64,000 nt of DNA. Source: Pseudooceanicola nanhaiensis (GTDB lineage: Bacteria; Pseudomonadota; Alphaproteobacteria; Rhodobacterales; Rhodobacteraceae). The notes beneath the pieces are model-generated. The model was not told where the DNA came from, made no database searches, and was given only the letters and a program-made list of their open reading frames with translations. Positions 14,995 to 64,000 of the stretch are shown here, in pieces. The DNA lies in contig NZ_JAIUZP010000010.1 of NCBI RefSeq assembly GCF_020171315.1, forward strand, positions 62,001-126,000, in the 5' to 3' direction. Both the position numbers and the translations under genes were made by a program. How positions within the stretch are numbered: position 1 is the first letter of the stretch; each line of letters starts with the position of its first letter.

Positions 14995-15857
14995 CAGCTG
15001 TCGTGCCCCGCGCTCTGGAGTGCGGCGCTCAGCTCGGTCACGGCCTCGCCCACGCGGGGGCCGAAGCCGAGGAGCAGCATGCCCTCCATCCGCACCACCG
15101 CGCCGGACTGCCCGGCAGGCGTGATGGCAAGCGCCGGATGGCTGAGCGCCTGATCAGCGGTGCCGTGGCCCGCGTCGGCGGCCCCGCCGCGCGACATCAT
15201 CAGGATGACATCGGGGGCGGCGGCGGCGATCGCCTCGTCCGTCACGGGCTTGTAGCCCGAGAAGGCGGTCAGCGCATTCTCGGCCCCGGCAAGGGTGATG
15301 ATCCCCTCGGCCGAGGTGTCGCGCCCGGCGGCAAGGATACGCCCGCCCTGCATCGAGAGGATGAAGAGCACCTTCTTGGCGGGTGTGCCATGGGCGGCCT
15401 CGGCGGCGGCGGCCAGTTGGGCATCGACGCTGTCTGCCAGCGCCTGCGCGGCCTCGGGCACCTCCAGCGCCGTGCCCACGGCGAGGATCTTGGCGCGCAC
15501 GGCCTCGGCGGAATGGCCGCCGGGCACCTCGATCATGGGGATCGCGGCGGCGCGCAGCATCTCCACCGCCTCGGGCGGGCCGGCGCCTTCCTCGGTCAGG
15601 ATCAGGTCCGGGTCCACCGACATCAGCCCCTCGGGCGAGAGGGCGCGGATATAGCCCACGTCGGGCAGCGCCTCCGCCTCGGGCGGGAAGTTCGACGTCG
15701 TATCCCGCGCCACCAGCCGGTCCTGCTGGCCGAGGGCATAGACGATCTCGGTCACGGAGCCGCCGATGGAGGCGATGCGGCTGGCAGGCTCGGCCCAGAG
15801 GGCCGGGGCCACGAGGGCGAGGCAGGCGGCAAGCGCCGTGGAGCGCAGCAGGCGCAT
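14994..15857 (-). CDS. hmuT: Periplasmic heme-binding protein
   Basis: A 287-residue class III substrate-binding protein. A signal peptide ends near ALWA (about residue 22), followed by SIGGSVTEIVYALG and DVGYIRALSPEGLMSVDPDL, the typical opening of HmuT-like hemin-binding proteins. ATG 15857 is 2 bp after the hmuS stop; a longer frame upstream overlaps hmuS and lacks a signal peptide. It carries heme from the outer-membrane receptor to HmuUV. Confidence 0.9.
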   Translation of the reverse strand: MRLLRSTALAACLALVAPALWAEPASRIASIGGSVTEIVYALGQQDRLVARDTTSNFPPEAEALPDVGYIRALSPEGLMSVDPDLILTEEGAGPPEAVEMLRAAAIPMIEVPGGHSAEAVRAKILAVGTALEVPEAAQALADSVDAQLAAAAEAAHGTPAKKVLFILSMQGGRILAAGRDTSAEGIITLAGAENALTAFSGYKPVTDEAIAAAAPDVILMMSRGGAADAGHGTADQALSHPALAITPAGQSGAVVRMEGMLLLGFGPRVGEAVTELSAALQSAGHDS

Positions 15858-15859
15858 GG

Positions 15860-16924
15860 TCACGCCTCCGCCGGTTCGGAGGTGAGATCGGCCAGCAGGG
15901 CCTCCCTCGCCGGGTAGTGATCGGCGTCGGGCTTGCGCAGGCCGAACATCTGGAAGATCACCGTGCCCTCGGCGTCGAAGGCCTCGACCGAGATCGCCAT
16001 GCCGCGGCGGGTGGGTTTCTCCACCAGCCAGACCTCGGCCACGTGATCGGCGCGCAGGTGCAGGTTGAAGCTGGGGTCGAGCACGTTCAGCCACGGGCCC
16101 ATCGGCTTGATCGTGTGCAGCGGGCCGGAGTGGATCTGGATGCAGCCCTTGTTGCCCACGAAGATCATCACCGGCACCTGTGTCTGCGCCACCCGCTCGA
16201 AGAGCGTGGGCACGATCCGGGGCGAGAGCGGGCGCGCCAGCGGGGCCCCTGCCACGCGGTAGGCGCCAAGGCGGTTCATCTTCAGCTTGGACACCAGCCC
16301 GAGGAACTGGTGCGAATCCGTCATGTTGTTCCAGAACTCGCGCAGCTTCTCGGCCTTGTCCGGGTCGGACTTCGGCGCTTCGGGGGCGCGGCGCGCCTCG
16401 ACCGTCATCTCTTCCGACTGCGCGGGCAGGGCAAGGTCCGCGGCGATCCGCGCAAAGGCCGCCACGTCCGATCCCTCGCGGCAGTAGATCTTGTGCACCG
16501 CGTCGCCCGCCGCATCGAAGATCATCAGCGCAGGGCGCCCGCCGCCGAGGCCCGCCTCAGGCGTGACGGCAAAGGCATGGACCCAGAACTTGGGGAAGAT
16601 GCGCAGGTCGATCTCGCCGTTCAGCACCATCGAGGCATGTTGCCCGCCCCGGTAGTGATCGTAATGGCCGATCTTCTCGTGCACGCAGCTTTCGGTGCGG
16701 GTCAGGGCCATGACCTCGCCCAGTTCGGCCACGCGGGGCACCAGCTGGTCGGGATCGGCGCTGATCCGGGTCACGCCATGGCCGGTAAAGGCTGCGACCA
16801 GCTGGCCCTCGGTGATCTTCAGCTGGTGGGCGAGGTCGCGGATGCGCAGCTTGTCATGCTCCTTGCGGGCGGCGCGGATCGCCTCGGGCGAGAGGACGGC
16901 GGAGGGGGGCGAGAGATCCTGCAT
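15860..16924 (-). CDS. hmuS: Hemin-degrading factor / heme trafficking protein HmuS
   Basis: A 354-residue cytoplasmic HmuS/ChuX-type protein of two related halves, each with a HemS-like repeat. The segment ending in NNMTDSHQF near the middle marks the second repeat. It is thought to bind incoming heme and pass it on or release its iron. The start is ATG 16924 with GAAGGAG 8 bp upstream; the frame extends further but into the divergent promoter. It is first in the hmuSTUV operon. Confidence 0.9.
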   Translation of the reverse strand: MQDLSPPSAVLSPEAIRAARKEHDKLRIRDLAHQLKITEGQLVAAFTGHGVTRISADPDQLVPRVAELGEVMALTRTESCVHEKIGHYDHYRGGQHASMVLNGEIDLRIFPKFWVHAFAVTPEAGLGGGRPALMIFDAAGDAVHKIYCREGSDVAAFARIAADLALPAQSEEMTVEARRAPEAPKSDPDKAEKLREFWNNMTDSHQFLGLVSKLKMNRLGAYRVAGAPLARPLSPRIVPTLFERVAQTQVPVMIFVGNKGCIQIHSGPLHTIKPMGPWLNVLDPSFNLHLRADHVAEVWLVEKPTRRGMAISVEAFDAEGTVIFQMFGLRKPDADHYPAREALLADLTSEPAEA

Positions 16925-17174
16925 GAGGGGCTCCTTCAGGGACAGCGTGTGAGGGGAATGCACCTGGCTGTCGCCGGAAGGGCGGACATGGCTGGATTGC
17001 AACAGTCATGAATCGGCGGCGAGAAAAGCGCCGCGAGATTTCTTGACAGATTTAATCGGGTTAGGTAGGCGACGCAAGACCGCGCTGCCCTCGGCGCGGA
17101 TGAATTCCTGAAAATTGAACGTGCCAGCCCTTTCGCCAGCCATGTTTCGCGCATGTCCAGAAAGGGACCCCCCG
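16925..17174. promoter_or_regulatory. Divergent promoter region of hmuSTUV and the TonB receptor
   Basis: This 250-bp gap drives both heme operons. A TTGACA hexamer at 17043-17048 points toward the receptor gene but lacks a clear -10. It is followed by GATTTAATC (17049-17057), a small dyad resembling the AT-rich sites of iron regulators. No exact Fur, Irr or RirA box was recognised, although iron control is likely for such genes. Confidence 0.4.
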
Positions 17175-19151
17175 ATGACCGCTTCCTCCCGAATGCGGGC
17201 CCTGTTGCTATGCTCCACGGCAACGGCCCTCGTGCTTGGCGCCATGCCTGCCTCTGCGCAGGACGGCGACGCCCCCATTGTCCTCGATGAAATCAGCGTC
17301 GCGCAGAGCAAGCGGGGCGTGCGCACCGACACCGCCACCGCGATCACCGTGGTGGAGCAGGAGGAGATGGAGGACCGGCAGGCCTCGACCATCTCGGAGC
17401 TGGTCGACTCGGTTCCCGGTGTCACTCTGCTGAACAGCGGCACGCCGGTGGGGGCGGGCATCAACATCCGCGGCTTTGGCGCAAACGGCACCTATGGCAC
17501 CGACCAGAAGGTGCTGATCATGATCGACGGCGCCACCGTGGGCAGCGAAGAGCTCTACCGCGTCGGGACCCAGCTCTACACCGATCCCGAGCTATACAAG
17601 CAGGTCGAGGTGATCCGCGGCATCGCGGGCACCTTCGAATACGGCTCCGGCGTGATCGGCGGGATGCTTCAGCTTGACACCAAGGACGCCTCGGATTTCA
17701 CCGGCGGCGAGGTGGGGTTCAAGGCGCGCCAGACCCTGCAATACGGCTCCAACGGGGACGAGATGGTCTCCTCCTCCATCCTCGCGTGGCAGCCGACGAA
17801 GAATGTCGAGTTCCTGGGCAACTACACCTGGCGCCAGATGGATGTGCAGGAGGACGGCGCGGGCAATGACATCGGCACCGAGGGCTACGAACTGCCCTCG
17901 TGGATGGTGAAGGGCAAGGTGACCTTCGGCGACGGCGACAACCAGACGCTGACGCTGTCCTACACCGACACCCAGACCGATGAGAAGGACGTGCCTTATG
18001 ACAGCTTTGGCATCACCAGCGGCTATTTCGGCAACGTCGACCGGCAGACCCATTCCAAGACCGCGGCGCTGAAGTACACTTACGACAGCCTCGACACCGA
18101 CCTGATCAACCTGACGGCCATCCTGTCCTACGCCGATCAGGAGATCGAGAGCGAAGGCGTCAGCGGTCAGACCGGGGCGCTCGCCAATATCGTGAACGCC
18201 GACAACCAGTATGAGACCACCAAGCTGACCGTGAAGAACGAGGCGCTCTTCAACACCGGCCTGCTGAGCCACAGCCTGCGCACCGGGATCGAACTGATCC
18301 ACAAGAAGCGGCTCGAGGCCTCCTCGGCACCCGGCGGCACCGACAAGCGCTTTGCCGTCTTCGCTGTGGATGACATCGACTTCGGCAACGGCCTGCGGCT
18401 GACGCCCGCGCTGCGCTACGAGACGCAGGAGGTCGGCGGCGATCTCTATGACACCTACACCAACGATGCCCTCATGGGCGGTCTGACGGCGCGCTATGCC
18501 TTCGGCAACGGCTGGGCGGTCTTCGGCTCCGCGGCCTATACGGAAAGCCTGCCGATCCTCGATGACCTCGGCACCGTGGCCTACATGACCCAGCCCGAGA
18601 AGGCGCGCAGCTACGAGCTGGGCTTCTCCTATGACCGTGACGGGCTGTTCACCGGCGGCGATGCGCTGCGGCTGAAGGTGAATGCCTACCACACCGAGAT
18701 CTGGGACATCACCTCCTACTCGGGCGTGACCGATGCCACCATGCAGGGGGTCGAGCTGGAGGCCGGCTACAGCCTCGCCTCGGGCTACTACATGGATGTG
18801 AATGCCAACCTCGTGCATGGCGAGGACGCGACCCCGGGTGCCAGCGACGACTATTGGGACGGCACGCCGGCAGATGAACTGCGGGTCAGCTTCGGCAAAC
18901 GCTGGGGTGAAATGCTCGACGTGAGCTGGGAGGTCGTGGCCGACGCGGAGATGGATCGTTCCTCCTCGCCGTCGGATGGATTTGTCGTCCACAATTTCCG
19001 CACTACCTATCGCCCGCAGGAGGGCGTCCTGCGCGGAACCGAGATGCGCTTCGGCGTCGAGAATGTCTTCGACACCGAGTACACGCCGCATCTCTCCACC
19101 CGGCCGGCCGCCGGGCGGACCTTCAAGGTGACGCTGGCCAAGACATTCTGA
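17175..19151 (+). CDS. TonB-dependent heme/hemoglobin receptor
   Basis: A 658-residue outer-membrane receptor. The signal peptide ends at ASAQ (about residue 29). The plug follows, with the TonB box-like DEISVAQ and the plug motif INIRGFGANG, then a 22-strand barrel ending in the aromatic LAKTF. It would import heme or a heme-protein ligand using TonB energy. ATG 17175 was chosen because it gives a normal signal peptide. I did not find the FRAP and NPNL motifs of many heme receptors, so the heme call rests on divergence from hmuSTUV. Confidence 0.85.
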   Translation: MTASSRMRALLLCSTATALVLGAMPASAQDGDAPIVLDEISVAQSKRGVRTDTATAITVVEQEEMEDRQASTISELVDSVPGVTLLNSGTPVGAGINIRGFGANGTYGTDQKVLIMIDGATVGSEELYRVGTQLYTDPELYKQVEVIRGIAGTFEYGSGVIGGMLQLDTKDASDFTGGEVGFKARQTLQYGSNGDEMVSSSILAWQPTKNVEFLGNYTWRQMDVQEDGAGNDIGTEGYELPSWMVKGKVTFGDGDNQTLTLSYTDTQTDEKDVPYDSFGITSGYFGNVDRQTHSKTAALKYTYDSLDTDLINLTAILSYADQEIESEGVSGQTGALANIVNADNQYETTKLTVKNEALFNTGLLSHSLRTGIELIHKKRLEASSAPGGTDKRFAVFAVDDIDFGNGLRLTPALRYETQEVGGDLYDTYTNDALMGGLTARYAFGNGWAVFGSAAYTESLPILDDLGTVAYMTQPEKARSYELGFSYDRDGLFTGGDALRLKVNAYHTEIWDITSYSGVTDATMQGVELEAGYSLASGYYMDVNANLVHGEDATPGASDDYWDGTPADELRVSFGKRWGEMLDVSWEVVADAEMDRSSSPSDGFVVHNFRTTYRPQEGVLRGTEMRFGVENVFDTEYTPHLSTRPAAGRTFKVTLAKTF

Positions 19152-49218: not shown

Positions 49219-50400
49219 ATGACCGATGCGTGGAAAAAACAGACCAAGGCTGTCCATTCGGGCAGCCGCCGCTCGCAGTATGGCGAGGTGAGCGAGGCGA
49301 TCTACCTGACCCAGGGCTTCGTCTACGACACCGCAGAGCAGGCCGAAGCCCGCTTCGTCGAACTGGGCGAGGACGAGTTCATCTATGCCCGTTACGGCAA
49401 CCCGACCACCCGCATGTTCGAGGAACGCATCGCCGCGCTGGAAGGCGCCGAGGATGCCTTTGCCACCGCCTCGGGCATGGCAGCGGTCAACGCGGCCCTC
49501 GTGGCGCCGCTCAAGGCAGGCGATCACGTGGTGGCGGCGCGGGCGCTCTTCGGCTCCTGCCTCTACATCCTCGACGAGATCCTGCCGCGCTTCGGCGTGG
49601 AAGTGACGCTGGTAGACGGGCTCGACCTGTCCGCATGGGAAGCGGCGCTGCGGCCCGACACCAAGCTGGTCTTCTTCGAATCCGTTTCGAACCCGACGCT
49701 GGAAGTGATCGACGTAGAGGCCGTTTCCAAACTCGCCCATGCGGTCGGCGCGCTGGTGGTGGTGGACAACGTCTTTGCCACCCCGGTCTATTCCCGCACG
49801 CTGGAACTGGGCGCCGATGTCGTCGTCTATTCCGCGACCAAGCACATTGACGGGCAGGGCCGGACGCTGGGCGGCGTGATCCTTGGCACCAAGGAGTTCG
49901 TCCGCAAGGTGGCAGAGCCCTACCTCAAGCACACCGGCGCCGCGATGAGCCCCTTCACCTCGTGGATCATGCTCAAGGGTCTCGAGACGATGGAACTGCG
50001 CGTGCGCGCGCAGGTTGCCTCGGCCGAGGCGCTCGCCTCCGCCCTCGTGGGGCACCCGAAGCTGGCGCGCGTGATCTACCCGGGCCACCCCTCCCACGCG
50101 CAGCACGCCCTCGTGCAGGCGACGACGGGCAAGGGCGGCACCGTGGTCTCCATCGACCTCGCCGGCGGGCAGGAGGCGGCCTTCCGCTTCCTCAATGCGC
50201 TGGAGATCGGGATCATCTCGAACAACCTCGGCGATGCGAAGACGCTGCTGACCCATCCGGCCACCACGACGCACCAGCGTCTGCCGGAAGAGCAGAAGGT
50301 CGAACTGGGCATCACCCCCGGTCTCGTCCGGATCTCGCTGGGGATCGAGGCGACCGAGGACCTCGTGGCAGACATGCTTCAGGCGCTCGATAAGGCCTAA
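49219..50400 (+). CDS. metZ: O-succinylhomoserine sulfhydrylase
   Basis: A 393-residue PLP enzyme of the Cys/Met metabolism family. The PLP-binding Lys208 lies in YSATKHIDGQGR, and RYGNPTTRMFEERIAALEGAE is the typical substrate-domain segment (shown in parts: RYGNPTTRMFEE). It makes homocysteine from O-succinylhomoserine and sulfide. Length and the SAM-II leader support metZ over cystathionine synthases. ATG 49219 has GGGAGAAG upstream. Confidence 0.92.
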   Translation: MTDAWKKQTKAVHSGSRRSQYGEVSEAIYLTQGFVYDTAEQAEARFVELGEDEFIYARYGNPTTRMFEERIAALEGAEDAFATASGMAAVNAALVAPLKAGDHVVAARALFGSCLYILDEILPRFGVEVTLVDGLDLSAWEAALRPDTKLVFFESVSNPTLEVIDVEAVSKLAHAVGALVVVDNVFATPVYSRTLELGADVVVYSATKHIDGQGRTLGGVILGTKEFVRKVAEPYLKHTGAAMSPFTSWIMLKGLETMELRVRAQVASAEALASALVGHPKLARVIYPGHPSHAQHALVQATTGKGGTVVSIDLAGGQEAAFRFLNALEIGIISNNLGDAKTLLTHPATTTHQRLPEEQKVELGITPGLVRISLGIEATEDLVADMLQALDKA

Positions 50401-53230: not shown

Positions 53231-53683
53231 GTGAAGAAACTCATTACAGTCATGTCTTTCGGCGCAGCTATCGCCATTTCAGCGCCCGTACATGCGCAGG
53301 ATTTGGTGTATCAGCCGGTGAATCCGAGTTTCGGCGGAAATGCCCTGAACTCGTCGCACCTCTTGTCGATTGCCGGGGCACAGCGCACGGCAACGGCCCG
53401 CGATGCCGCCACATCCTCCAGCAGCGGATCGACCGATACGACGGATTCCAGCGATGCGGATCTCTTTGTGCGTCAGCTTCAGGGGCGGCTGTTGTCGGCC
53501 CTCGCCGCGCAGGTGACCGATGCGATCTTCGGGACCGATCCGCAGGAAAACGGCACCGTCACCTTCGGGACCACCACAGTCACATTTGAACGCACACTCG
53601 ATACGATCTCGCTGCTCATCGTCGATAACTTCGATGGGACCGTGACCGAGATCGTGGTGCCCCAACTCGTGTCGAGCAACTGA
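53231..53683 (+). CDS. csgF: Curli assembly protein CsgF
   Basis: A 150-residue exported protein starting at GTG 53231. The signal peptide ends VHAQ (about residue 23). The mature N-terminus DLVYQPVNPSFGGNALNS is the CsgF hallmark that inserts into the CsgG pore. A Ser/Thr-rich linker and a C-terminal beta segment follow. CsgF couples secretion to nucleation of curli fibres at the surface. It overlaps csgG by one base. Confidence 0.93.
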   Translation: MKKLITVMSFGAAIAISAPVHAQDLVYQPVNPSFGGNALNSSHLLSIAGAQRTATARDAATSSSSGSTDTTDSSDADLFVRQLQGRLLSALAAQVTDAIFGTDPQENGTVTFGTTTVTFERTLDTISLLIVDNFDGTVTEIVVPQLVSSN

Positions 53684-54747
53684 TGATGCCGATGTCCATG
53701 ATCCGAAGCCTCGCCGCCCTCGCCGCCCTGACCACGCTGGGGGGCTGCGCCGAACTGGCCAGCAACGCCCTTGGCGAACCGCAGCCTGCGCTGACCAGCG
53801 AGGTGACGAAACAGAACCTCCAGCTGCGCACCCTTCCGGGCCCGTCGCAGCGTGTCGCCGTGGCGGTCTACGACCTGCCCGACATGACCGGCCAGTTCCG
53901 CGAGCGGGAGTCCGTCCAGTCGCTGTCGCGTGCGGTCAGCCAGGGCGGGGGCCCCATGCTGATCAAGGCCCTGCAGGATGCTGGCGAACGGCGCTGGTTC
54001 TCTGTCCTCGACCGGACCGCGCTGGATGACCTTCTGCGCGAACGCCAGATCGTGACCGAGATGCGCCGCCTCTACCGTGGCGAGACGCAGCCCGATCCCA
54101 CCGCTGTGCCCCCGCTGCGCCATGCGGGCATCATCATCCAGGGCGCGATCGTGGGCTATGACAGCAACATCCAGACCGGCGGCTTCGGTGCGCGCTACCT
54201 TGGGGTTGGCGGCAACCAGCAGTGGAAACTGGACATTGTCACGGTCAGCCTGCGGGCGGTGTCGAGCGACAGCGGCGAAGTGCTCGCCTCCGTCATGGTG
54301 GACAAGCCGATTGCCTCCACCTCGATCCAGGGCGGTGCCTTCACCTATATCGCGCTGGATGAGTTGCTGGAGATCGAAACCGGCTTCGCGGTCAATGAAT
54401 CCAAGCAGTTGGCCGTCCAGATGGCGATAGAGAAGGCGGTGATGAGCCTCGTCCTTGAGGGCGCGGACCTCGGCATCTGGCAATTTGCCAACAAGACGGC
54501 GGGCGACCAGATGCTGCGGACTTACCGCGAAGAGAAGTACCGCGGGACGACGATGCCCACCTACATGCGGTCCGCGCAGCCGCCGGACACCCAGAACCCG
54601 ACCCGCGTTGTGGCGACGCGCCCGGCTGCCCGGCCGACGGCGGGCCCGGTGCGCGAACGCATCCTCGCCCCCGCCGCGCCGACCCAGAAGGCCCCCCGTG
54701 AGGTTACCCTGCCGCCGCCCGCATCGGCGGATGAAGTGATTGGCTGA
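53683..54747 (+). CDS. csgG: Curli secretion pore lipoprotein CsgG
   Basis: A 354-residue outer-membrane secretion channel for curli subunits. The lipobox LTTLGGC gives lipidated Cys22. The periplasmic domain has VAVYDLPDMTGQF and DRTALDDLLRERQ; the membrane hairpin region includes GYDSNIQTGGFGARYLG. It is about 75 residues longer than E. coli CsgG, owing to a Pro/Arg/Ala-rich C-terminal tail (about 285-354). Two adjacent ATGs offer starts one codon apart. It is coupled to csgF. Confidence 0.94.
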   Translation: MMPMSMIRSLAALAALTTLGGCAELASNALGEPQPALTSEVTKQNLQLRTLPGPSQRVAVAVYDLPDMTGQFRERESVQSLSRAVSQGGGPMLIKALQDAGERRWFSVLDRTALDDLLRERQIVTEMRRLYRGETQPDPTAVPPLRHAGIIIQGAIVGYDSNIQTGGFGARYLGVGGNQQWKLDIVTVSLRAVSSDSGEVLASVMVDKPIASTSIQGGAFTYIALDELLEIETGFAVNESKQLAVQMAIEKAVMSLVLEGADLGIWQFANKTAGDQMLRTYREEKYRGTTMPTYMRSAQPPDTQNPTRVVATRPAARPTAGPVRERILAPAAPTQKAPREVTLPPPASADEVIG

Positions 54748-54818: not shown

Positions 54819-54994
54819 GCGTGGCGCGGTGCGGGAACGGACCGCGCTGCGGGCATCTCGCTTGGAACCCAGCCTGTGACTCGATCTCAACAAGTCTAAG
54901 GGAATGTCGCGCGCGGGACATATTCACGCCCTGATCTTCTGGCCTGTTTCTGGCAAGGTTGTTCGCAAAAAAGAGCAGAACAAAGGGCAAAACG

Positions 54995-55492
54995 ATGCAG
55001 GCAATGGCAACCCGTTTCGGGGCAGCCTCGGTGATCGCGTTCACCCTGGCGACGACGGCTGGCGGCGCATTCGCCGGGCCGGAGGCAGAAAACAATTTCG
55101 TCGGCCTCACTATCTCGGGGCTCGAGAATACCCTCGTGATCGAACAGACCTATACGGCTGGCACCGTCACGGCACCGAATTCGATCCAGGTTGATATCGT
55201 GGGCGACAACAACGGCGGCGGCGCGGCCTGGCCGAGCGGGGCGCTGATCGAAACCGGGCTGACCCCGGGCAGCCTGTTCCAGAGCGGCGCGGGGAATGAC
55301 ATCGCCATTTCCGTCACCGGTCACGGCAATCTCTTTGCCGTGCGTCAGGTCGGATACGCGAACAGTGTCGCGGGCCAAATCACCGGCACAGGCAATGCCG
55401 CCGCGATCACGCAGGGCGGCACGGGCAACCATGTCTCTTTCTCCCAGACGGGCCAAAACAATACGATAGTGGTTTCCCAATCGACCCATTGA
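54995..55492 (+). CDS. Small curlin-repeat protein (CsgA/CsgB-like)
   Basis: A 165-residue exported protein; the signal peptide ends GAFA (residue 27). The C-terminal half has curlin-type units with the G-x-x-N-x-A-x-x-x-Q pattern (GHGNLFAVRQVG, GTGNAAAITQGG, GQNNTIVVSQ). It is likely a minor subunit or nucleator of the fibre. The N-terminal about 90 residues are less repetitive. ATG 54995 follows an AAAGGG site; a TTG 12 codons earlier is unlikely. Confidence 0.8.
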   Translation: MQAMATRFGAASVIAFTLATTAGGAFAGPEAENNFVGLTISGLENTLVIEQTYTAGTVTAPNSIQVDIVGDNNGGGAAWPSGALIETGLTPGSLFQSGAGNDIAISVTGHGNLFAVRQVGYANSVAGQITGTGNAAAITQGGTGNHVSFSQTGQNNTIVVSQSTH

Positions 55493-55550
55493 TGGTATTC
55501 TAAACCAGTGATTTTTATCGCTGATTTTGCGTTGAGTATTGGGGTCTGCT

Positions 55551-56189
55551 GTGAAGACGATTGGATATGCAATTGCGGCGCTCGGGTTTTTCGCGCTGCC
55601 GCTGTCTGCCGGGGATGGCAACGTGCTGAATTTCCTTCAGCTCTCCACCGGGGCGGACGGCAATGCCCTCTTCATCGACCAATCCGAGGCGACCGGCTCG
55701 CTGATCGCCGGCGATCCGCTGAACATCACGCCTGCGACGCAGGCCGGCAACGGGAACACGGCCGAGGTCGAGATCCGCGGCAATGGCGGCACGCTGGTGC
55801 TGAACCAGAACAACGCCCTGACCGGGCTCTCCATCGGCAATCAGGCGGAGGCGGTGATCGCGGGCGTGTCGGGCTTCGGCTCGATCCTGCAACTCGGGGA
55901 CCTGAACAGCGCGACGCTGTCGGTGCAGTCGCCGGACGCCTTCAACCCGGCCTCCGGCGCGATTGCCCAGATCGGCACCGCGAACACGGGCACGCTTTCC
56001 GTGGACGGGGCAGGGGCCTCGGGCGAGCTGCGCCAGATCGGCAACGGCAACACCAACGCCCTCTCGGTCGAGGGCACCGGTACCACGGCGACCTACACCC
56101 AGATCGGCAACGGGCTGTCCAACCAGAACGGCGGTGTCAGCGTGGTGTCGAACGGCGGCAGCGTGTCCATCACGCAGACCTCGTTCTGA
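55551..56189 (+). CDS. Curlin-repeat protein (CsgA/CsgB-like)
   Basis: A 212-residue exported protein starting at GTG 55551, which gives a clean signal peptide ending LSA (residue 20). The rest is beta-strand repeats with GNGNTAEVEIRG, LGDLNSATLSVQ and IGNGNTNALSVEG, including the Gln/Asn ladder of curlins. csgH starts one base after its stop. It may be the nucleator or major subunit; homologues cannot be assigned A or B by eye. Confidence 0.78.
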   Translation: MKTIGYAIAALGFFALPLSAGDGNVLNFLQLSTGADGNALFIDQSEATGSLIAGDPLNITPATQAGNGNTAEVEIRGNGGTLVLNQNNALTGLSIGNQAEAVIAGVSGFGSILQLGDLNSATLSVQSPDAFNPASGAIAQIGTANTGTLSVDGAGASGELRQIGNGNTNALSVEGTGTTATYTQIGNGLSNQNGGVSVVSNGGSVSITQTSF

Positions 56190-56190
56190 C

Positions 56191-56568
56191 ATGCGTATCC
56201 CCGGAATGAAGGGCGCGGCCGCTGCCTTCTCGGCCCTGCTTCTGAGCGCAGGAGGCCTCATGGCTGGGTCCTCTCCCACCTCCAGTATCGAACTGACCCG
56301 GCTCGACGGCGCATTGCGGATCGAGGGTTTTGTGGATGGCGGCAGCGGCGAGGTGAAAGCCACCCTGACCATCGCCCACCACGGCAGCGGGGGCACGATG
56401 AACACGCGTCAGGGGCGGTCCGTCCAGCTGAGCGAGAACCAGCGGATTTCGGTCTCCTCGACCCAGATCAATTTCGGCCCCGCGTCCGACCTGGTGGTCG
56501 AGCTGATCGTCGAGGATGAAACCGGGGTCATCTCGCGCAGCGTGACCCACATCAGCCCGCAATCCTGA
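56191..56568 (+). CDS. csgH: CsgH-like curli inhibitor/chaperone
   Basis: A 125-residue exported protein with a signal peptide ending near LMAG (about residue 25). A compact immunoglobulin-like beta domain follows (SIELTRLDGALRIEGF, then SSTQINFGPASDLVVELIVE). CsgH is found in alphaproteobacterial curli operons and blocks premature amyloid formation in the periplasm. Location directly after a curlin gene supports the call. Confidence 0.8.
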   Translation: MRIPGMKGAAAAFSALLLSAGGLMAGSSPTSSIELTRLDGALRIEGFVDGGSGEVKATLTIAHHGSGGTMNTRQGRSVQLSENQRISVSSTQINFGPASDLVVELIVEDETGVISRSVTHISPQS

Positions 56569-56595: not shown

Positions 56596-57357
56596 ATGCG
56601 TTCACTGCCCGCCCTTGCCCTCGCTGTTTCCGCGTCCCTGTCGTTGGCGGGGCCCTCTGTCGCGCAGTCGCGCGATCAACTCGTTCAGGCGTTCTCGGGC
56701 AACTGGTTCGTCTTCGATCCCAGCTTTGCCGCCGGGGGCAACTGCGGCCTGACACTGGGCGGCGCGGTGGTCTCGAACGACGGCCAGATGTCTGCCGCCA
56801 CGGAAAACTGCGCCGAGGCCATCGCCCGCACCAAGAGCTGGAGCATCGAGGGCGGTGTCCTGCGGCTCTTCGACGACGGCGGCAGCCAGTTGGCGGAACT
56901 CGGCGGCAACCAGCGCCGCGTGACCGGCCTGACCACGCCGGAGCAATCGGGCGTGATCATCGAACGGGCCTCGGGCGACGGCTTTGCGCAGGAGATCGCC
57001 CTCGCCGTGCAGGAACACCGCTGCTACTACTACGGCACCTCCGCCAACTGCGCCACGAAGGAAGACCTCGTCGCGCCGAGCTTCGCCGAGGAAGAGGGCG
57101 AGATGCTGGCCCAGATCGAGACGCTGGGCAATCTGGCGGTCCGGTCGCAGCCGCGCCGCGATGCCACGATGATCGGCACGGTTCCGGCCAATTCCTGCGT
57201 CCGGGTCAACCAATGCGTCACGGCGTCGGACGGGCTGTGGTGCCGTGCGGCCTTTGGCGAGCGGCAGGGCTGGCTGGCCAAGACCGCGCTGCGCAAGGAA
57301 ACTTGGCCGATCGTCACCTTCGCGAACGGCTGTTCCGACACGGCGGACAAGGGCTGA
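56596..57357 (+). CDS. Exported AprI/Inh inhibitor-like and SH3 protein
   Basis: A 253-residue secreted protein; the signal peptide ends SVAQ (about residue 24). Residues about 30-125 (FSGNWFVFDP ... NCGLTLGG ... CAEAIARTKSW) have the Trp/Cys layout of AprI/Inh metalloprotease-inhibitor domains. A bacterial SH3 domain (about 175-240, NLAVRSQPRRDATMIG and GWLAKTAL) follows. It ends the plus-strand curli block, 27 bp after csgH, so may protect fibres or subunits from proteases. That link is inferred. Confidence 0.65.
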   Translation: MRSLPALALAVSASLSLAGPSVAQSRDQLVQAFSGNWFVFDPSFAAGGNCGLTLGGAVVSNDGQMSAATENCAEAIARTKSWSIEGGVLRLFDDGGSQLAELGGNQRRVTGLTTPEQSGVIIERASGDGFAQEIALAVQEHRCYYYGTSANCATKEDLVAPSFAEEEGEMLAQIETLGNLAVRSQPRRDATMIGTVPANSCVRVNQCVTASDGLWCRAAFGERQGWLAKTALRKETWPIVTFANGCSDTADKG

Positions 57358-57470: not shown

Positions 57471-58874
57471 CTACTGCATGACCACCGCGACGTTGGCGCG
57501 GCCGGTCTGGGTGACCCCGGCGGCATTGCCATTGCCGAACTGCAGCAGAAGCGCCTCGTTCTCGGAGCCTATGACCTCCAGCGAGATCATGTTGTCGATC
57601 CCCTGCTGGAAGAAGGCCGAGAGGTTCGCATCCCCGAGGACCGTCACGTCCGCCGTATTGTCGAGGCCTATCTGGACATAGGTGCCGGGCGTGTAGCCCG
57701 CGCCCTGCGGCATCGAGAACCCGGTGGTCGTGTTGTTGCTGCTGCCGGTGATGTCGGCGGTGAACCGGTTGTCGCCCTGTTGGGTCAGATCCGCGAGGTT
57801 GTCGTCGCCCTCGACCCGGATCGAGGCATCGTTGTCGCCACCGGCGGAGAGGTCGAAGCCCTGGCGCATCACCACCTCGTTGCGGTGGCCATTGATCAGG
57901 ACATAGCCGTCGTTGGTGCCCATTTGGTCGATCAGCACCTGGTTGTCGTCGCTGATCCCCTCGAGGCTCAGCTCGGCCACGTTGGTGCCCAGCTGGCTGA
58001 GCCCGACCTCGTTGTTGTCACCCTCGATGGTGGCGAGGATGATGTCGTTTTCCGTGCCGTCCTGCTCGACCCCGATGGCGTTGCCGTCGCCGGTGAGCAC
58101 GATCGCCCCGGTGCGGTTGATCCGCCCGCGCTGCAACACGCCGAAGGCATTGGACGCGCCGTAGATCTGGAGGCTGACCTGATTGCCGTTGCTGCCTGTG
58201 TCCTCCGACCCGCGGCGCTGCACGATTTCCGAGGCAAGGGCCGCAGTGTAGCCGGCATAGCCGCTCAGGGCCGTGGTGCCGTTGTTCTCTCCGTCGATGA
58301 AGACGAAGACATCGTTCTCCTCACTACTCAGATCAGAGCCGCTGACCTGCCGCAGGAGGTCGATGCGGTTGCCGAAACCGGACATCGTGACCTCTGCGTT
58401 CTGGCCCGGCGTGCCCGCCTCTTTCACTTGTTCAACCTGCGACACGATGTTGCCGTCGCCATCCCGCTCGTCGATGGTCAGCCGGTTGCCCGCCCCGCTG
58501 GCCACGCCCAGAACCTGCTGCACGATCTCGCCGATCACGTTCTGATCTCCGGTCTGGCTCAACGTCGCGCTGTTGGCGTGGTCCGCGGTGCCGAAGAGGT
58601 TGTCCTGCACCAGTCCGGCCCCGCTGGCGGCGATGCTGTTGTCCTGCCCGGTCTGCTCGATCACCAGCTGGTTGAAATACCCGTCCTGATCCATCGGCAG
58701 GCCGACCGCGCCTGCGGTGTTGCGCTGACCGCTCTGGGTCACTTCCGCGGTGTTGTCGGCGCCGCTCTGTTCGGCCGAGGCGAAGTTTTCGAGGCTCTGC
58801 GCCTGCGCGGCGGTCCCGAGGGCGAGGGCAGCCAGAAGCGTCAGGGCACGGCCAGTGGCGTTGCGATGTCTCAT
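57471..58874 (-). CDS. Curlin-repeat protein, 467 residues
   Basis: An exported curlin-like protein; the signal peptide ends AQA (about residue 25). Nearly the whole mature chain is curlin-type strands (SGADNTAEVTQSG, NGNAAGVTQTGRAN) with regular Gln and Asn. It is three times the length of classical CsgA. GGAAGGAGGA lies 5-14 bp before the ATG, one of the strongest ribosome sites here, suggesting abundant product. It ends AVVMQ, like its neighbours' terminal Gln. Confidence 0.85.
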   Translation of the reverse strand: MRHRNATGRALTLLAALALGTAAQAQSLENFASAEQSGADNTAEVTQSGQRNTAGAVGLPMDQDGYFNQLVIEQTGQDNSIAASGAGLVQDNLFGTADHANSATLSQTGDQNVIGEIVQQVLGVASGAGNRLTIDERDGDGNIVSQVEQVKEAGTPGQNAEVTMSGFGNRIDLLRQVSGSDLSSEENDVFVFIDGENNGTTALSGYAGYTAALASEIVQRRGSEDTGSNGNQVSLQIYGASNAFGVLQRGRINRTGAIVLTGDGNAIGVEQDGTENDIILATIEGDNNEVGLSQLGTNVAELSLEGISDDNQVLIDQMGTNDGYVLINGHRNEVVMRQGFDLSAGGDNDASIRVEGDDNLADLTQQGDNRFTADITGSSNNTTTGFSMPQGAGYTPGTYVQIGLDNTADVTVLGDANLSAFFQQGIDNMISLEVIGSENEALLLQFGNGNAAGVTQTGRANVAVVMQ

Positions 58875-58907: not shown

Positions 58908-60107
58908 CTATTGCAGGATCGTCGCCGTGTTGTTGGTGCCGATCTGGGCGAAGACGGCGTTGTTGCCATTCCCCAGCTGGGTGACCGTGGCGCTGTTGCC
59001 GCTGCCGGTCTGGACGCCGTCGACGGTGTTCTGATCGCCGGTGATCGTGACGAGCCCGGTGTTCGACGCGCCGGTCTGCATCAGCGTCGCGGCATTGAAT
59101 GCCCCCATGACCGAGGCGGTGATCATGTTGTCCGTGCCGGCCTGTCCGAAGAGGATGCTGTTGGCATCGCTGGCCGGGCCGATGTCCAGTGCGATCCCGT
59201 TCGAGATGCCGCTCTGCTGGGTGCCGACCTCGTTGCCATCGCCGAAGATCGTGACAGCCAGCTGGTTGCCGAGGCCGCTCTGCGTGGCGCCAAAGGCGTT
59301 GTCCGATCCGGTCAGGAGGATCGGGCTCAACACCGTGCCCATGCTATTGCCGAGGCCGTTCTGGCGGGTGCCGGTCGCGTTGCGGTCGCCGGTGATCGAC
59401 AGCAGGAGCGAATTACCCGCGCCCCCGCTGGCGTTGGCCCCTTGGGCATAGACGCCGCCCGTGGCGCCGACGACATCGGCCACGCCAGTGAGCGGGGAGG
59501 TGCCGTTGTCATCGCCCAACTGCACGATCTCGATTCGGTTGGCGGCAGAGCCCGCGCCGTCGGAGATCTGCGCCACAAGGGCGATGGCGTTGTTGGCGCC
59601 CTGCTGAAGGATGCTGGCCGCGTTGCCCTGAGCCCCGCCGCGCTGCTGAACGATGCGGGCGATGCTGTTGCCATCGGTGCCGCCCTGACCTGCGATGCCC
59701 TGTTCGATGAGCAGCTGGTTTCCGGCCGCGCCGGGGGCGGCGGTGCTGGCCTGCCGCAGGGCGCCGATGGTGTTGCCGCTGCTGTGCTGGAGCAGCCGCG
59801 CGGTGTTCGATGTGCTGGCCTCTTCCGCGCTCTGGATCAGGCCGGTGAGCGCGGCGCCGACACTGTTGTCGTCGCCGGACTGAATGAGGGTGAGCTGGTT
59901 CGACGGGCCGAGCTGGCGCAGGGCCATGGATGCCGTTCCTGCCACGTTGTCCGATCCGGCGGACTGATCGACGAGGGCCATGTTGCCGGTCCCGGAGACA
60001 AGCGCCGACCCCTGGTCGAGGAAGGCCGCGTTGTTGTCCGCCCAAGCTGCCGCAGGCAGAAGCGCGATCCCGGTCAGGACGGTCAGGAGACTAAGGGGAA
60101 GCCGCAT
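58908..60107 (-). CDS. Curlin-repeat protein, about 400 residues
   Basis: An exported curlin-like protein; the signal ends AWA and the mature chain begins DNN, as in the 993-residue protein upstream. Curlin strands such as GSGNSATVTQLG and IGTNNTATILQ cover the mature chain, ending exactly at the repeat's Gln. The start is ATG 60107 (399 residues); a GTG three codons earlier is possible. The 467-residue gene starts 33 bp further on, so the two are likely cotranscribed. Confidence 0.85.
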   Translation of the reverse strand: MRLPLSLLTVLTGIALLPAAAWADNNAAFLDQGSALVSGTGNMALVDQSAGSDNVAGTASMALRQLGPSNQLTLIQSGDDNSVGAALTGLIQSAEEASTSNTARLLQHSSGNTIGALRQASTAAPGAAGNQLLIEQGIAGQGGTDGNSIARIVQQRGGAQGNAASILQQGANNAIALVAQISDGAGSAANRIEIVQLGDDNGTSPLTGVADVVGATGGVYAQGANASGGAGNSLLLSITGDRNATGTRQNGLGNSMGTVLSPILLTGSDNAFGATQSGLGNQLAVTIFGDGNEVGTQQSGISNGIALDIGPASDANSILFGQAGTDNMITASVMGAFNAATLMQTGASNTGLVTITGDQNTVDGVQTGSGNSATVTQLGNGNNAVFAQIGTNNTATILQ

Positions 60108-60152
60108 CAAAATCACTATCTGTCGCTAAATCGGAAAGGGCCCCGAGGGGCA

Positions 60153-60215
60153 CTGCCCGGCATTGAAATGCTGCCGGGCAGCGGATCGCCCCGGCGCAAC
60201 TTTGCGCGCCGGGGC
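60153..60215 (-). terminator. Two tandem hairpins between curlin genes
   Basis: Ten-base arms at 60153-60162/60172-60181 and at 60188-60197/60206-60215 form two stem-loops just after the 993-residue gene. Neither has a T-tract on the minus strand, so partial termination or RNA stabilisation is plausible. Confidence 0.5.
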
Positions 60216-60231
60216 TTCTTGTCTTCAGGCG

Positions 60232-63213
60232 TTACTGCAGGATGCCTGCGTTGTTGCCGCTGCCGACCTGCGAGAAGGAGGCGGTGTTGTAGCTGCCGAC
60301 CTGAGTGACGACGGCCTGGTTGCCATCCCCGGTGATCGTGCCCGTGATCCCGTTCGAATTGCCGTCCTGCAGCGTGGCGAAGCTGTTCAGGTCGCCCATG
60401 ACCGTCAGGCTCAGCCCGTTGTTGAAGCCGACCTGCACGAGGGCGCCCTTGTCGAGGCCACCGGTGTTGGCGGCGAGGGCAGTGCCCGAGAAGGCCGGGG
60501 AGGAGGCGGGCAGGAGGAGGCCAGCGAGGCCGCCCGGATTGGTGTAGTTGTTCTGATCGCCGGTCACCGAGACGGTCAGCGTGTTCGAATCGCCGGTCTG
60601 GGTGGCTGCGAGCACGTTGTAATCGCCCTCCTGGACCGTGGTCAGCGCGTTGCCGTTGCCTGCGACGGTGCCTGTTGCGACGTTGAACCGCCCGTCCTGG
60701 CTCATGTCCGAGTCATTGACGGAGCCGGTAACCGTCAGCAGCATGTTGTTGCGCGAACCGGACTGGGTCAGGGCCGAGGTGTTTGCGGTGCCGAAGATAT
60801 CCGCCAGAGCGACGTTGCGCTCGCCGTCCTGATCGAGGTCGCTGATATTGCTGTTGCCGTCGATCAGCAGCGTGCCCTCGTTCTGCGTGCCCACCTGGTC
60901 CAGGATCGAGGTGTTGCCGTTGCCGGCCACATCGGTGAGCGCGTAGTTGCGCGAGCCCGACTGGGTCGTGGTGGACAGGTTGCCCGAACCGTTGACCGTC
61001 ACGAAGCCGTCGTTGCGGTTGCCGGTCTGGCTCACGCTCGAGGTGTTGCCGTTGCCCGCGATCAGGGCTTCGGCCTCGTTCAGCGATCCGTCCTGGGTGA
61101 TGTCGGTGGTGTTGCCGTGGCCATCGACATCCGCCAGAGCCTCGTTGAGGCCCGAAAGCAGGTCACCGGTCTGGTCGATCGTGGTCAGGTTGCCGTTGCC
61201 GTCGACCAGCGCTTCGGCGCTGTTGAACAGAGCGGACTGGGTGATCAGCGTCGTGTTGGCGTCGCCGGTGATCTCGGCGTCCGCATCGTTGCCGCCGCCG
61301 GTCTGGCCGACGTTGGTGAAGTTGCTGGAGCCGACCACGTAGGCCTTGGCGTCATGGCCCACGCCATCCTGCGTGACGATCGAGGTGTTCGCATCGCCCT
61401 CAACGTCGACCAGCGCGGTGCTGCCGCCGAGGAGCGGCAGGCCACCCAACTGGGAGATCGTAGTGCCGTTGCTGTTGCCGTCGATCAGGGCGTCTGCCTC
61501 GTGGCCGATGCCGGTCTGGGTCACGGTCGTGCCGTTGCCATCGCCATCCACGTCCACGAAGCCGTCGTTCGAGACGCCGGTCTGCGTGACGAAGGACCCG
61601 TTGGACGCGCCCAGAACGTCAATCATGGCGATGTTGTCGTCGCCGGTCTGGTTCGCGACGGAGGTGTTGTAGTTGCCACCCACGACCACGAAGCCGTCGT
61701 TTTCGTCGCCGGTCTGGGTCACGGTGGAGCCGTTGGCGTCGCCACTGACGGTGATCTCGCCTTCGTTCAGATCACCGGACTGTGTCATGGTGGAGCCGTT
61801 GAAGTTGCCGGTGACGGCGATGGCGCCATCGTTGGAATCCCCGGTCTGCGTCAGGAACGAGCCGTTGGAGTTGCCCTCCACACCGATCGCGCCGACGTTG
61901 TCGAAGCCGGTCTGCGTCGCGGTCGAGGTGTTGTAGTCGCCGACGACGTCGATGCTGGCGGTGTTGAAATCATCGGTCTGGGTGATGGACGAGCCGTTGG
62001 CGTCGCCGTCGACGTCGATGGTGGCGATGTTGTCGTCACCCGATTGCGTGGTGGTGCCGCTGTTGTTGTCGCCGACCAGAAGGATGTCGGCCGTGTTGTC
62101 GTCACCATTCACATTGACCGACGCGTAGTTCGAGACGCCTTGCTGGTCGATGTCGCTGTCGTTGGTGTCGCCGGTCACGGTGACGTAGCCCACGTTGGCG
62201 TCGCCGGTCTGCAGGGTCAGCGTCAGGTTGTCGTTGCCGCTGATGCTGGTGCTGGCGAAGTTGGTGTCGCCGGTCTGATTGAAACCGGTGATGTTGCGGT
62301 CGCCGGTGACGGGGCTCAGGGCCACGACGTTGTCATCACCGATCTGGCCGACGCCAACCTGGCTCTGATCGCCGGAGACGACGATGCCGGTGGCGAAGTT
62401 CGAGTTACCGGTTTGGGTGACGCCATATTGCGCGCGGTAGCCGCTCAGCGACAATTCGGTCTGGTTCCCGTTCCCGGTCTGCAGGATACGGCGCGCCGTT
62501 GCGCCCGAGGCGGCCGCGTCGGGCTCGAAGTTCGGCACACCCACGCCAACGCCCGACATCGAGATCGTCGCGCTGTTGTCGTTGCCGCTCTGACGCAGCA
62601 GTTGCAGCCGGTGCTGATAGCCGTCTTGCGTCACGACCGCGGTGTTGTCGCCGCCATCCTGGATGACACCGTTCAGGGTGCCGGTCCCCATGGCAACTTG
62701 GTTGTTGTTATAGGAGGCGGTGCCGGTGGCCGTGTTCGTTTGGGTCACCGTGGCCTCGTTGCCGCCCGAACCGGTCTGGCGGACATTCGCGATGTTCGCG
62801 TTCTCTCCGGTGGTCTGGGTGACGGTCGCGATATTGTCGTCGCCGCTTTGGGTCAGCACGTTGATGCTGTTCCCCGGGTCCGTGCCGGTGGCGGTGGTGC
62901 GGGTCTGCGAGACGATGGCTTCATTGTCGTCACCGGTCTGGGAGACTTCTGCCGCCGCCATGTTGCTGCCGGCGCTGTTGTAGCCACCTACCTGGGTGAT
63001 GGAGAGTTCGTTGTCGTTGCCGGTCTGGGTCACGCCCCCGACAAGTGCCCCGTCCACGCCGGCGTCGGAGTCGTTGGCCAGCGATTGGTCGATCAGTGCC
63101 GCGTTGCCCGTGCCGTCCTGCGTCAGCAGCGCGTCGTTGTTGTCGGCCATGGCGGCCGCGCCGGTCAGGACGAGCGCGCTGCTCGAGGCCATCAGAATGC
63201 TCTTGATCTTCAT
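60232..63213 (-). CDS. Giant curlin-repeat protein, 993 residues
   Basis: An exported protein with a signal ending AMA (residue 23). The mature chain is about 40 curlin-like units of 22 residues, each with two half-strands: a TQTGDxNxG half and a VxGNxNGS half. The regular core spans about 61050-62250. N-terminal units are less regular and C-terminal units return to classical SQVGSGNNAGILQ. This is far longer than CsgA (five repeats). It should form a very long beta-solenoid or amyloid segment exported through CsgG. Few Cys or aromatic residues are present. Confidence 0.88.
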   Translation of the reverse strand: MKIKSILMASSSALVLTGAAAMADNNDALLTQDGTGNAALIDQSLANDSDAGVDGALVGGVTQTGNDNELSITQVGGYNSAGSNMAAAEVSQTGDDNEAIVSQTRTTATGTDPGNSINVLTQSGDDNIATVTQTTGENANIANVRQTGSGGNEATVTQTNTATGTASYNNNQVAMGTGTLNGVIQDGGDNTAVVTQDGYQHRLQLLRQSGNDNSATISMSGVGVGVPNFEPDAAASGATARRILQTGNGNQTELSLSGYRAQYGVTQTGNSNFATGIVVSGDQSQVGVGQIGDDNVVALSPVTGDRNITGFNQTGDTNFASTSISGNDNLTLTLQTGDANVGYVTVTGDTNDSDIDQQGVSNYASVNVNGDDNTADILLVGDNNSGTTTQSGDDNIATIDVDGDANGSSITQTDDFNTASIDVVGDYNTSTATQTGFDNVGAIGVEGNSNGSFLTQTGDSNDGAIAVTGNFNGSTMTQSGDLNEGEITVSGDANGSTVTQTGDENDGFVVVGGNYNTSVANQTGDDNIAMIDVLGASNGSFVTQTGVSNDGFVDVDGDGNGTTVTQTGIGHEADALIDGNSNGTTISQLGGLPLLGGSTALVDVEGDANTSIVTQDGVGHDAKAYVVGSSNFTNVGQTGGGNDADAEITGDANTTLITQSALFNSAEALVDGNGNLTTIDQTGDLLSGLNEALADVDGHGNTTDITQDGSLNEAEALIAGNGNTSSVSQTGNRNDGFVTVNGSGNLSTTTQSGSRNYALTDVAGNGNTSILDQVGTQNEGTLLIDGNSNISDLDQDGERNVALADIFGTANTSALTQSGSRNNMLLTVTGSVNDSDMSQDGRFNVATGTVAGNGNALTTVQEGDYNVLAATQTGDSNTLTVSVTGDQNNYTNPGGLAGLLLPASSPAFSGTALAANTGGLDKGALVQVGFNNGLSLTVMGDLNSFATLQDGNSNGITGTITGDGNQAVVTQVGSYNTASFSQVGSGNNAGILQ

Positions 63214-63246
63214 TGGTATTTTCCCAAATTTTTGTGGAAACAGAGG

Positions 63247-63270
63247 CCCGGGTCAGCAATCAGACCCGGG
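63247..63270 (-). terminator. Stem-loop between curlin genes
   Basis: CCCGGGTC (63247-63254) and GACCCGGG (63263-63270) with an 8-base loop lie 15 bp beyond the stop of the rightmost curlin gene. On the minus strand a T-rich stretch (CCTCTGTTT) follows. It may attenuate expression into the giant gene. Confidence 0.55.
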
Positions 63271-63284
63271 ACAAGACTGGAAAC

Positions 63285-64000
63285 TTACTGGACGATGCCG
63301 GCGTTATTGCCGGTGCCGATCTGGCTGTAGGTGGTGCTGTTGCCATTGCCGAGTTGCAGCACGGCGACCTGGTTGTTGACGCCGTTCTGGCTGCCGGTGA
63401 TGCTGTTGTCAGAACCTTCCTGAAGCGTGCCGAAGGTATTGCCGCTGCCGATCTGGATCAGCTCGGCCACGTTCAGAACGCCAAACTGCCGGACCACGCC
63501 GCGCTCCCAGTTGGCGCTGAAGCTGGCTGCCACAAGGGCCTGTCCGGTCAGCGGATCGCCGTAAACCAGCCCGTCGCCGTTGTTGTTGCCGTCGATGCTG
63601 ACACTCGCATCGTTCGAAACGCCGTTCTGGTCGATCAGGAAGCTGTTGCCGGTGCTGTTGCCGCCGACGATTTCCACCTCGGCATAGTTGTCGTAGGACA
63701 GCTGGATGATGCCGACGGTATTGTCGTTGCCCTGGATCGCCGAGAGCTGGACCTCGTTTTCGTCGCCGTTCTGGTAGATGCCGACATTGGCGCGCTTGCT
63801 GTCGAGGTTGACGGCATTGACGGTGTTGTAATTGCCGAACTGCGAAATGCCGAACTGGTTCTCATCGGGCACCGGGATCGACGGGCGGCCATTGATGGTG
63901 AGCTCCATCTGGTTGCCGATGCCTTCCTGCACCAGGGTGGAACTGACTGCCCCGGTCACGGCGGCAAAGCCTGCCAGCGAACCGAGGCCGTTCTCGCTGC
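63285..64000 (-). CDS. Curlin-repeat protein, partial at window edge
   Basis: The C-terminal 238 residues of a fourth minus-strand curlin gene; the frame stays open to the right edge, so the 5' end is missing. Strands such as FGNYNTVNAVN, DENEVQLSAIQGNDN and IGSGNTFGTLQEG show the curlin pattern, and it ends GTGNNAGIVQ, nearly the same as the giant protein's terminus. A GTG at 63959 is a possible internal start but would remove any signal peptide. Confidence 0.8.
   Translation of the reverse strand, partial: SENGLGSLAGFAAVTGAVSSTLVQEGIGNQMELTINGRPSIPVPDENQFGISQFGNYNTVNAVNLDSKRANVGIYQNGDENEVQLSAIQGNDNTVGIIQLSYDNYAEVEIVGGNSTGNSFLIDQNGVSNDASVSIDGNNNGDGLVYGDPLTGQALVAASFSANWERGVVRQFGVLNVAELIQIGSGNTFGTLQEGSDNSITGSQNGVNNQVAVLQLGNGNSTTYSQIGTGNNAGIVQ

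Follow-up and report, generated by a model that had tools for sequence, protein, structure and literature searches.

A giant curlin of Pseudooceanicola nanhaiensis with conserved ends and a repeat array of variable length

What is a curlin for when its chain is many times longer than that of CsgA? Repeat number in curlins varies from 3 to 62 across two surveys. The question arises anew from a 64,000-nucleotide stretch of the Pseudooceanicola nanhaiensis genome (RefSeq assembly GCF_020171315.1, contig NZ_JAIUZP010000010.1, positions 62,001 to 126,000; hereafter the window), in which an intact open reading frame (ORF) of 993 codons occupies positions 60232-63213 of the minus strand. A sequence-only reading had taken the product for a giant curlin built almost wholly of 22-residue repeats, perhaps a fibre core, an adhesin, or a molecular ruler. 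We find that the gene is real and its product a curlin, that its ends are kept among relatives and its middle changes in length, and that the protein probably serves as a structural subunit in extracellular amyloid fibres of the curli type, with ends for docking and an array acting as an expandable spacer.

The proposed curlin identity was borne out by the Pfam repeat model (Curlin_rpt, PF07012), which matched the 993-residue chain in 14 stretches with E = 1.1e-69 and 230.5 bits (curated cut-off, 20.7); no domain besides the curlin repeat was detected by Pfam at E <= 0.01. The chain also matched the solved curlin 8c50_A in a phmmer search (E 3e-21). Residue identity within the protein peaked at a lag of 22 (0.270, with 0.253 at lag 44 and 0.207 at lag 11), compared to a best value of 0.131 over lags 1-119 in 500 shuffles, and this period lies within the 23 +/- 5 residues described for curlin repeats (PMC10192328). 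In the DNA, the expected 66-bp period was recovered by Tandem Repeats Finder as two arrays (61709-61875 and 61929-62076). A strict profile trained on the giant curlin's own halves placed 71 half-units of 11 residues, or 781 of the 993 residues (200 shuffles: mean 4.2, maximum 10), and a looser rule placed 76, the first of them inside the signal peptide. The giant curlin therefore holds about 36-38 coils of 22 residues rather than the 40 or so first estimated, which still makes it many times longer than E. coli CsgA with its five repeats, as had been supposed. The length of 993 residues, earlier assigned to the mature chain, belongs to the precursor; cleavage between AMA and DNN, read by eye, leaves about 970.

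The NCBIfam equivalog model of CsgB (NF007506) scored 215.4 bits (cut-off, 165), but the model has 151 positions and its score adds up 11 matching stretches of a long repeat, and therefore does not name the giant curlin CsgB. An open frame of 1055 codons lies antisense to the giant gene (60163-63330, plus strand). It was rejected as a coding gene and attributed to codon usage, since the antisense frame stayed open across the whole gene in 500 of 500 trials when synonymous codons were resampled from the gene's own usage.

The chain divides as follows:

60232-63213, minus strand: giant curlin gene, precursor of 993 residues (ORF, lag identity, Pfam)
63145-63213, minus strand: putative signal peptide, residues 1-23 (cleavage read by eye)
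62575-63144, minus strand: N-terminal zone of irregular Q/Q coils interrupted by insertions, residues 24-213 (half-coil parsing)
60550-62574, minus strand: array, residues 214-888, Q halves and V/I halves, coil number differing among relatives (half-coil parsing, alignment)
60451-60549, minus strand: linker, residues 889-921, partly low-confidence in the predicted model (aligns with the linkers of the 730- and 656-residue relatives)
60235-60450, minus strand: conserved C-terminal module, residues 922-993 (half-coil parsing, anchors)

Among 51 halves selected from residues 241-860, position 6 of 11 is Q in 25 and V, I, or L in 26, and position 2 follows suit, with S or T in 21 of the 25 Q halves and A or G in 25 of the 26 V/I/L halves. 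The two kinds alternate except at two slips, V-L at 363/374 and Q-Q at 856/867. The former, a half-coil phase slip at residues 363-384 in which an L half follows a V half, is absent from the 730- and 656-residue relatives described below, which have neither V-L nor V-V pairs; a 526-residue relative contains a V-V pair. The alternation had been read as running through almost the whole chain; it holds for about residues 240-965 and fails at both ends, because all halves at residues 24-213 are Q, with insertions between them, and the last 1.5 coils are Q/Q. The last 28 residues, made of such Q/Q coils, contain no acidic residue. Q in both motifs, by which centrosymmetric (CS) curlins are defined, is thus found in the N-terminal zone and the last coils and not in the array.

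The strongest reciprocal best matches of the giant curlin are chains of 730 residues in Szabonella alba (L032:3223-5415), 656 residues in genome G016 (L058:4521-6491), and 526 residues in genome G1121; seven weaker reciprocal matches measure 566-821 residues, and end conservation was compared for the strongest three. The 730-residue chain is identical to the giant curlin at 53% of 331 aligned positions in the N part and 58% of 133 in the C part, and the 656-residue chain at 54% of 331 and 61% of 140, respectively, compared to 31-43% and 33-52% for 19 other large curlins. Both have the same type of Q/V array. In the giant curlin and its three relatives, 303, 306, 313, and 340 residues precede the first anchor, the last figure including 24 residues from an earlier start codon (303-316 when counted from the same start), and 71, 71, 71, and 73 follow the last anchor. 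Between the inner anchors, the 993-, 730-, and 656-residue chains have 581, 321, and 232 residues, equal to 52, 29, and 21 half-coils plus 9, 2, and 1 loop residues; with loop insertions subtracted, the two relatives are 23 and 31 half-coils shorter than the giant array. The 526-residue chain has no inner anchor, and its 113 residues between the outer anchors hold 7 arcs, or about 8 half-coils. Since the sides are near constant and the arrays differ this widely, the ends are kept and the middle changes in length. As to the surroundings of the 656-residue gene (L058 4521-6491), by eye it lies between ribonucleotide-reductase-like and CoA-transferase-like genes, on the same contig as its genome's curli cluster, and no csg gene was noticed by eye in the 12 kb read around it.

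The Q/Q, acid-poor C-terminal ending extends beyond these relatives. We surveyed 97 distinct curlin ORFs from 40 loci, retaining those with more than 0.025 arcs per residue and dropping those cut by a locus end; 74 ORFs from 31 loci have at least 250 residues. Since ORFs were started at the first ATG, GTG, or TTG, some lengths are upper bounds. The giant curlin is the longest of the 97, followed by ORFs of 821, 806, and 760 residues. A 928-residue ORF in locus L094, with 19 arcs of which 18 are Q, was dropped by the density filter, and a 1182-residue open frame from the family search was discarded as two ORFs in one frame (424 and 730 residues). Each of the two final full halves is Q in 72 of the 74 large ORFs, compared to 26% for the third half from the end and 47% for middle halves. 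Acidic residues (D and E) amount to 1.8% of the last 28 residues versus 10.6% of the middle, with a lower value at the end in 73 of the 74 and none at all in 44, and the first 100 mature residues, at 9.5%, are not acid-poor. Parsing of 18 small and large curlins showed 17 ending in Q-Q. A second sample of 16 large curlins from 19 loci of a phylum search, of which 13 come from classes other than that of the window, gave acidic fractions of 0.047 at the C-terminal end versus 0.147 in the middle, lower in 16 of 16.

The giant gene belongs to a cluster in which csgF, csgG, csgH, and five further curlin or curlin-like genes lie within about 11.5 kb:

53231-53683, plus strand: csgF (PF10614, E 3.1e-27)
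53683-54747, plus strand: csgG, secretion channel (PF03783, E 4.9e-46)
54959-55492, plus strand: small curlin, 177 residues (PF07012, E 3e-07)
55539-56189, plus strand: small curlin-like protein, 216 residues (shows the half-coil pattern; matched weakly in NCBIfam, E 0.0052, and not in Pfam)
56191-56568, plus strand: csgH, curlin chaperone (NF041112, 50 bits, cut-off 35)
56596-57357, plus strand: 253-residue protein adjoining csgH (weak Inh, or protease-inhibitor, and SH3 matches, both below Pfam cut-offs)
57471-58874, minus strand: large curlin, 467 residues (ORF, Pfam)
58908-60116, minus strand: large curlin, 402 residues (ORF, Pfam)
63285-64000, minus strand: upstream large curlin, 491 residues, start outside the window (Pfam)

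The plus strand thus carries csgF, csgG, csgH, both small curlins, and the 253-residue protein, and the minus strand carries the four large curlins in the order 491, 993, 402, and 467 residues. This csgG is the sole PF03783 match in the genome at E <= 0.001. Among 24 loci returned by CsgG, the closest is that of Szabonella alba (76%), whose large curlins of 466, 412, 730, and 424 residues stand in the same order as those of 467, 402, 993, and 491 residues and are their reciprocal best matches; a further large curlin there has 421 residues. With respect to csgG, the large curlins lie upstream and read away from it in Szabonella, and downstream and reading towards it in the window genome.

A structural model of the mature chain was obtained with AlphaFold2 from an alignment with 15 other curlins (predicted local distance difference test [pLDDT], 77.2; predicted template-modelling score [pTM], 0.55). 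It comprises 78 strands at a median spacing of 11 residues, 60 of the 77 spacings falling within 10-12, and only 10 helical residues. Residues 142-156, 366-368, 870-875, and 877-881 are of low confidence, and 366-368 lie just past the V-L slip. The model is supportive of the stacked beta-solenoid that had been anticipated, though not decisive, and the suggestion of a curlin solenoid exportable through CsgG draws support from the repeat model, from csgF, csgG, and csgH, and from this nearly all-strand prediction. The sequence match to 8c50_A speaks more strongly for the putative two-sheet beta-solenoid fold than the predicted structure does, and the model does not fix its handedness.

From the repeats, the cluster, the conserved ends with their variable middle, the Q/Q ends, and the fewer acids at the C-terminus, we infer the following course. 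A Sec signal would direct the precursor, and CsgH, the curlin chaperone, would help to keep the chain unfolded in the periplasm. The chain would then pass the CsgG/CsgF pore; with csgF, csgG, and csgH in the same cluster, export through CsgG is the natural reading. Outside the cell, it would fold into one beta-solenoid of about 37 coils, which at the published 4.8 Å for each coil comes to about 18 nm. The acid-free Q/Q coils at its C-terminus, 1.5 in number, would dock with the N-terminal Q/Q zone of the subunit that follows and act as its template. Between the two ends, the acidic Q/V array would serve as a covalent spacer whose coil number drifts in evolution. Mixed fibres with other curlins of the cluster appear likely because four of the five others also end in two Q halves. 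Curlin solenoids have been described as open-ended and stacking head to tail, with a screw axis where a chain ends on a half coil (Sleutel et al., PMC10192328). More tentatively, and with the odds somewhat against so general a statement, many large curlins might share this plan of Q/Q ends, an acid-poor C-terminus, and an acidic array of freely evolving length, in which Q/Q ends would let odd and even chains as well as paralogues join and subunit length would tune the number of joints per fibre. In the lineage of the giant curlin, the array of such a shared plan would have had one Q ladder replaced by V/I.

Several observations weigh against a docking-end fibre subunit of this kind. A Foldseek search of the PDB with the full model and with a 264-residue array segment gave no match at E <= 0.001; 8c50_A ranked 23rd with the segment (E 6.5), the segment modelled without an alignment reached a pLDDT of 65.1, and the pTM of the mature-chain model is the 0.55 given above. 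In VIA, the best match had Z 16.8 at a root-mean-square deviation of 31 Å, and those near Z 16 with about 4 Å were DFA-IIIases and polysaccharide lyases, which we take to be right-handed beta-helices. Cryo-electron microscopy supports left-handed curlins, and thin alignments often yield right-handed curlin models (PMC10192328). Since our alignment of 16 sequences is of this thin kind, the VIA matches were set aside as evidence on the fold. The survey has its own counterweights. Within single chains, the share of windows no richer in acid than the C-terminal 28 residues has a median of 10.7% over the 74 ORFs; those residues rank in the lowest 5% for 25 chains and the lowest 10% for 36, and 13 of the 31 loci have a median of 10% or less. 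The 74 ORFs are also mutually related, so that 73 of 74 does not represent 73 independent events. Of the 18 parsed curlins, only 9 show the full ending Q-[VIL]-Q-[VIL]-Q-Q. In the phylum-search sample, Q occupies the last full half of 11 of the 16 chains and the half before it in 14. Judged by eye, about 8 of the 16 consist of Q/Q coils from end to end and 4 combine Q/Q ends with a Q/hydrophobic array, which makes the Q/V array one of at least two designs. Finally, no CsgE was found in the genome at E <= 0.001, which bears on how a chain of this length would be kept unfolded and led into the pore; Alphaproteobacteria have been described as lacking csgE (Dueholm et al., PMC3521004).

Other roles for so long a chain can be weighed with the same data. 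As a surface adhesin or tether, it would form a single very long solenoid held at the cell with a binding tip, as its 36-38 coils and the linker and C-terminal module kept in relatives would allow, and the 656-residue relative sits in a 12-kb stretch without a csg gene by eye. However, the curlin repeat is all that Pfam finds in the chain, and two Q halves at the end of 17 of 18 parsed curlins fit shared subunits better than a special tip, and we consider this role unlikely. A molecular ruler setting fibre length or distance from the cell, one of the original proposals, would profit from the fixed length per coil that regular repeats provide, yet arrays of 52, 29, 21, and about 8 half-coils among the reciprocal-best relatives are not conserved in length, and the neighbouring 467-residue curlin keeps its length better than the giant curlin does. 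This proposal thus finds little room, and we regard it as very improbable.

Equally improbable, in our estimate, is a decaying gene in which repeats expanded without function. Its presence is patchy, with curlin repeats in 3 of 22 genomes of the genus, and units lying side by side resemble each other overall slightly more than distant ones do, in DNA (0.582 vs 0.523) and in protein (0.424 vs 0.373). On the contrary, all 993 codons are intact, and G and N are each kept in 49 of the 51 selected array halves, a selection that itself favours both letters. Moreover, fourfold sites are no more alike between neighbouring 66-bp units (39/63, 0.619) than between the most distant (193/315, 0.613; bins between, 0.492-0.653), and recent duplication was rejected on these grounds as the cause of the length. 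Because fourfold sites show no neighbour excess, the array motif looks kept by selection rather than freshly copied, and judging from the sequence a fresh expansion of the array is unlikely.

A fibre subunit with docking ends and a spacer array can also be set beside known curlins. The giant curlin resembles E. coli CsgA and CsgB (PF07012) in its 22-residue strand-arc-strand repeats, its Q and N core positions, and the csgG and csgF of its cluster, and differs in having V/I for the Q of motif b, csgH nearby, and no csgE found. In CsgA, the inner repeats R2-R4 carry Asp/Gly gatekeepers and R1 and R5 do not (PMC9900396), a parallel to the acid-poor C-terminal end of large curlins. The R15.5 curlin of Pontibacter korlensis (PDB 8c50), to which the phmmer match above refers, is likewise long; it is described as centrosymmetric, with Q in both motifs (PMC10192328), whereas the giant curlin is so only in its N-terminal zone and last coils. 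With the Degenerate (D) class, represented by Sediminicola sp. YIK13, the giant curlin shares the defining traits of a motif b lacking Q and of insertions (PMC10192328); insertions inside motifs are reported in this class for Roseovarius indicus (Sleutel et al. 2023, PMC10192328). In contrast to the D class, Q loss in the giant curlin is systematic, its 25 Q and 26 V/I/L halves coming nearly always in turn.

Length itself is not the novelty. Published curlins have 4-62 repeats (PMC10192328) or, in a second survey, 3-52 (PMC12822426), with up to 30 copies per genome (PMC10192328, PMC12822426), so that a curlin of about 36-38 coils among six curlins falls inside the published range and giant curlins are not new. 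We found no description of the plan with Q/Q ends and a Q/V middle, or of a conserved-ends series, in the literature searched, and do not claim their absence from print. What the comparison adds is the series with conserved ends and a variable middle. A 2025 review suggests experiments altering repeat number (PMC12822426). Chains that resemble one another at their ends and carry 26, 14.5, and 10.5 coils in their arrays form a natural test set for how subunit length affects the growth and strength of fibres, and for whether docking is governed by the ends alone.

Regarding distribution, the genome from which the window comes is counted in every figure. The 3 of 22 genus genomes mentioned above have curlin repeats at E <= 0.001, and Curlin_rpt at E <= 1e-5 occurs in 10 of 385 genomes of the class. 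The array query (residues 245-870) matched 41 of 295 family genomes at E <= 0.001 and 23 of 398 phylum genomes at E <= 1e-8, counts that represent repeat matches and not orthologues, and the N part (residues 24-355) matched 8 of 394 family genomes at E <= 1e-10. Six exact peptide patterns from the giant curlin had no match in a viral contig collection, a weak test that catches close relatives only. Among plasmids, 12 records matched the array query, all below 60% identity and 8 of them covering at least 80% of it.

Of the four large curlins, the one of 467 residues (57471-58874, minus) has the highest identity to a relative (57%, in Szabonella). The eight strongest of its reciprocal matches comprise seven of 465-483 residues and one of 522, and four weaker ones measure 476-578. 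The protein is thus a candidate component of fixed size, for instance a nucleator.

Between window positions 50000 and 64000, no RNA family was detected at the gathering threshold. Just after the giant gene, at 60117-60234 of the minus strand, two strong hairpins are predicted (RNA fold -60.4 kcal/mol, z -4.9), and the corresponding gap in Szabonella contains one that differs in sequence (-31.5 kcal/mol, z -3.9); the hairpins 3' of the giant gene may stop or protect the message between subunits. In locus L009, the curli cluster is directly followed, at 15200-19001, by genes identified by eye as those of urease (accessory, gamma, beta, and alpha subunits).

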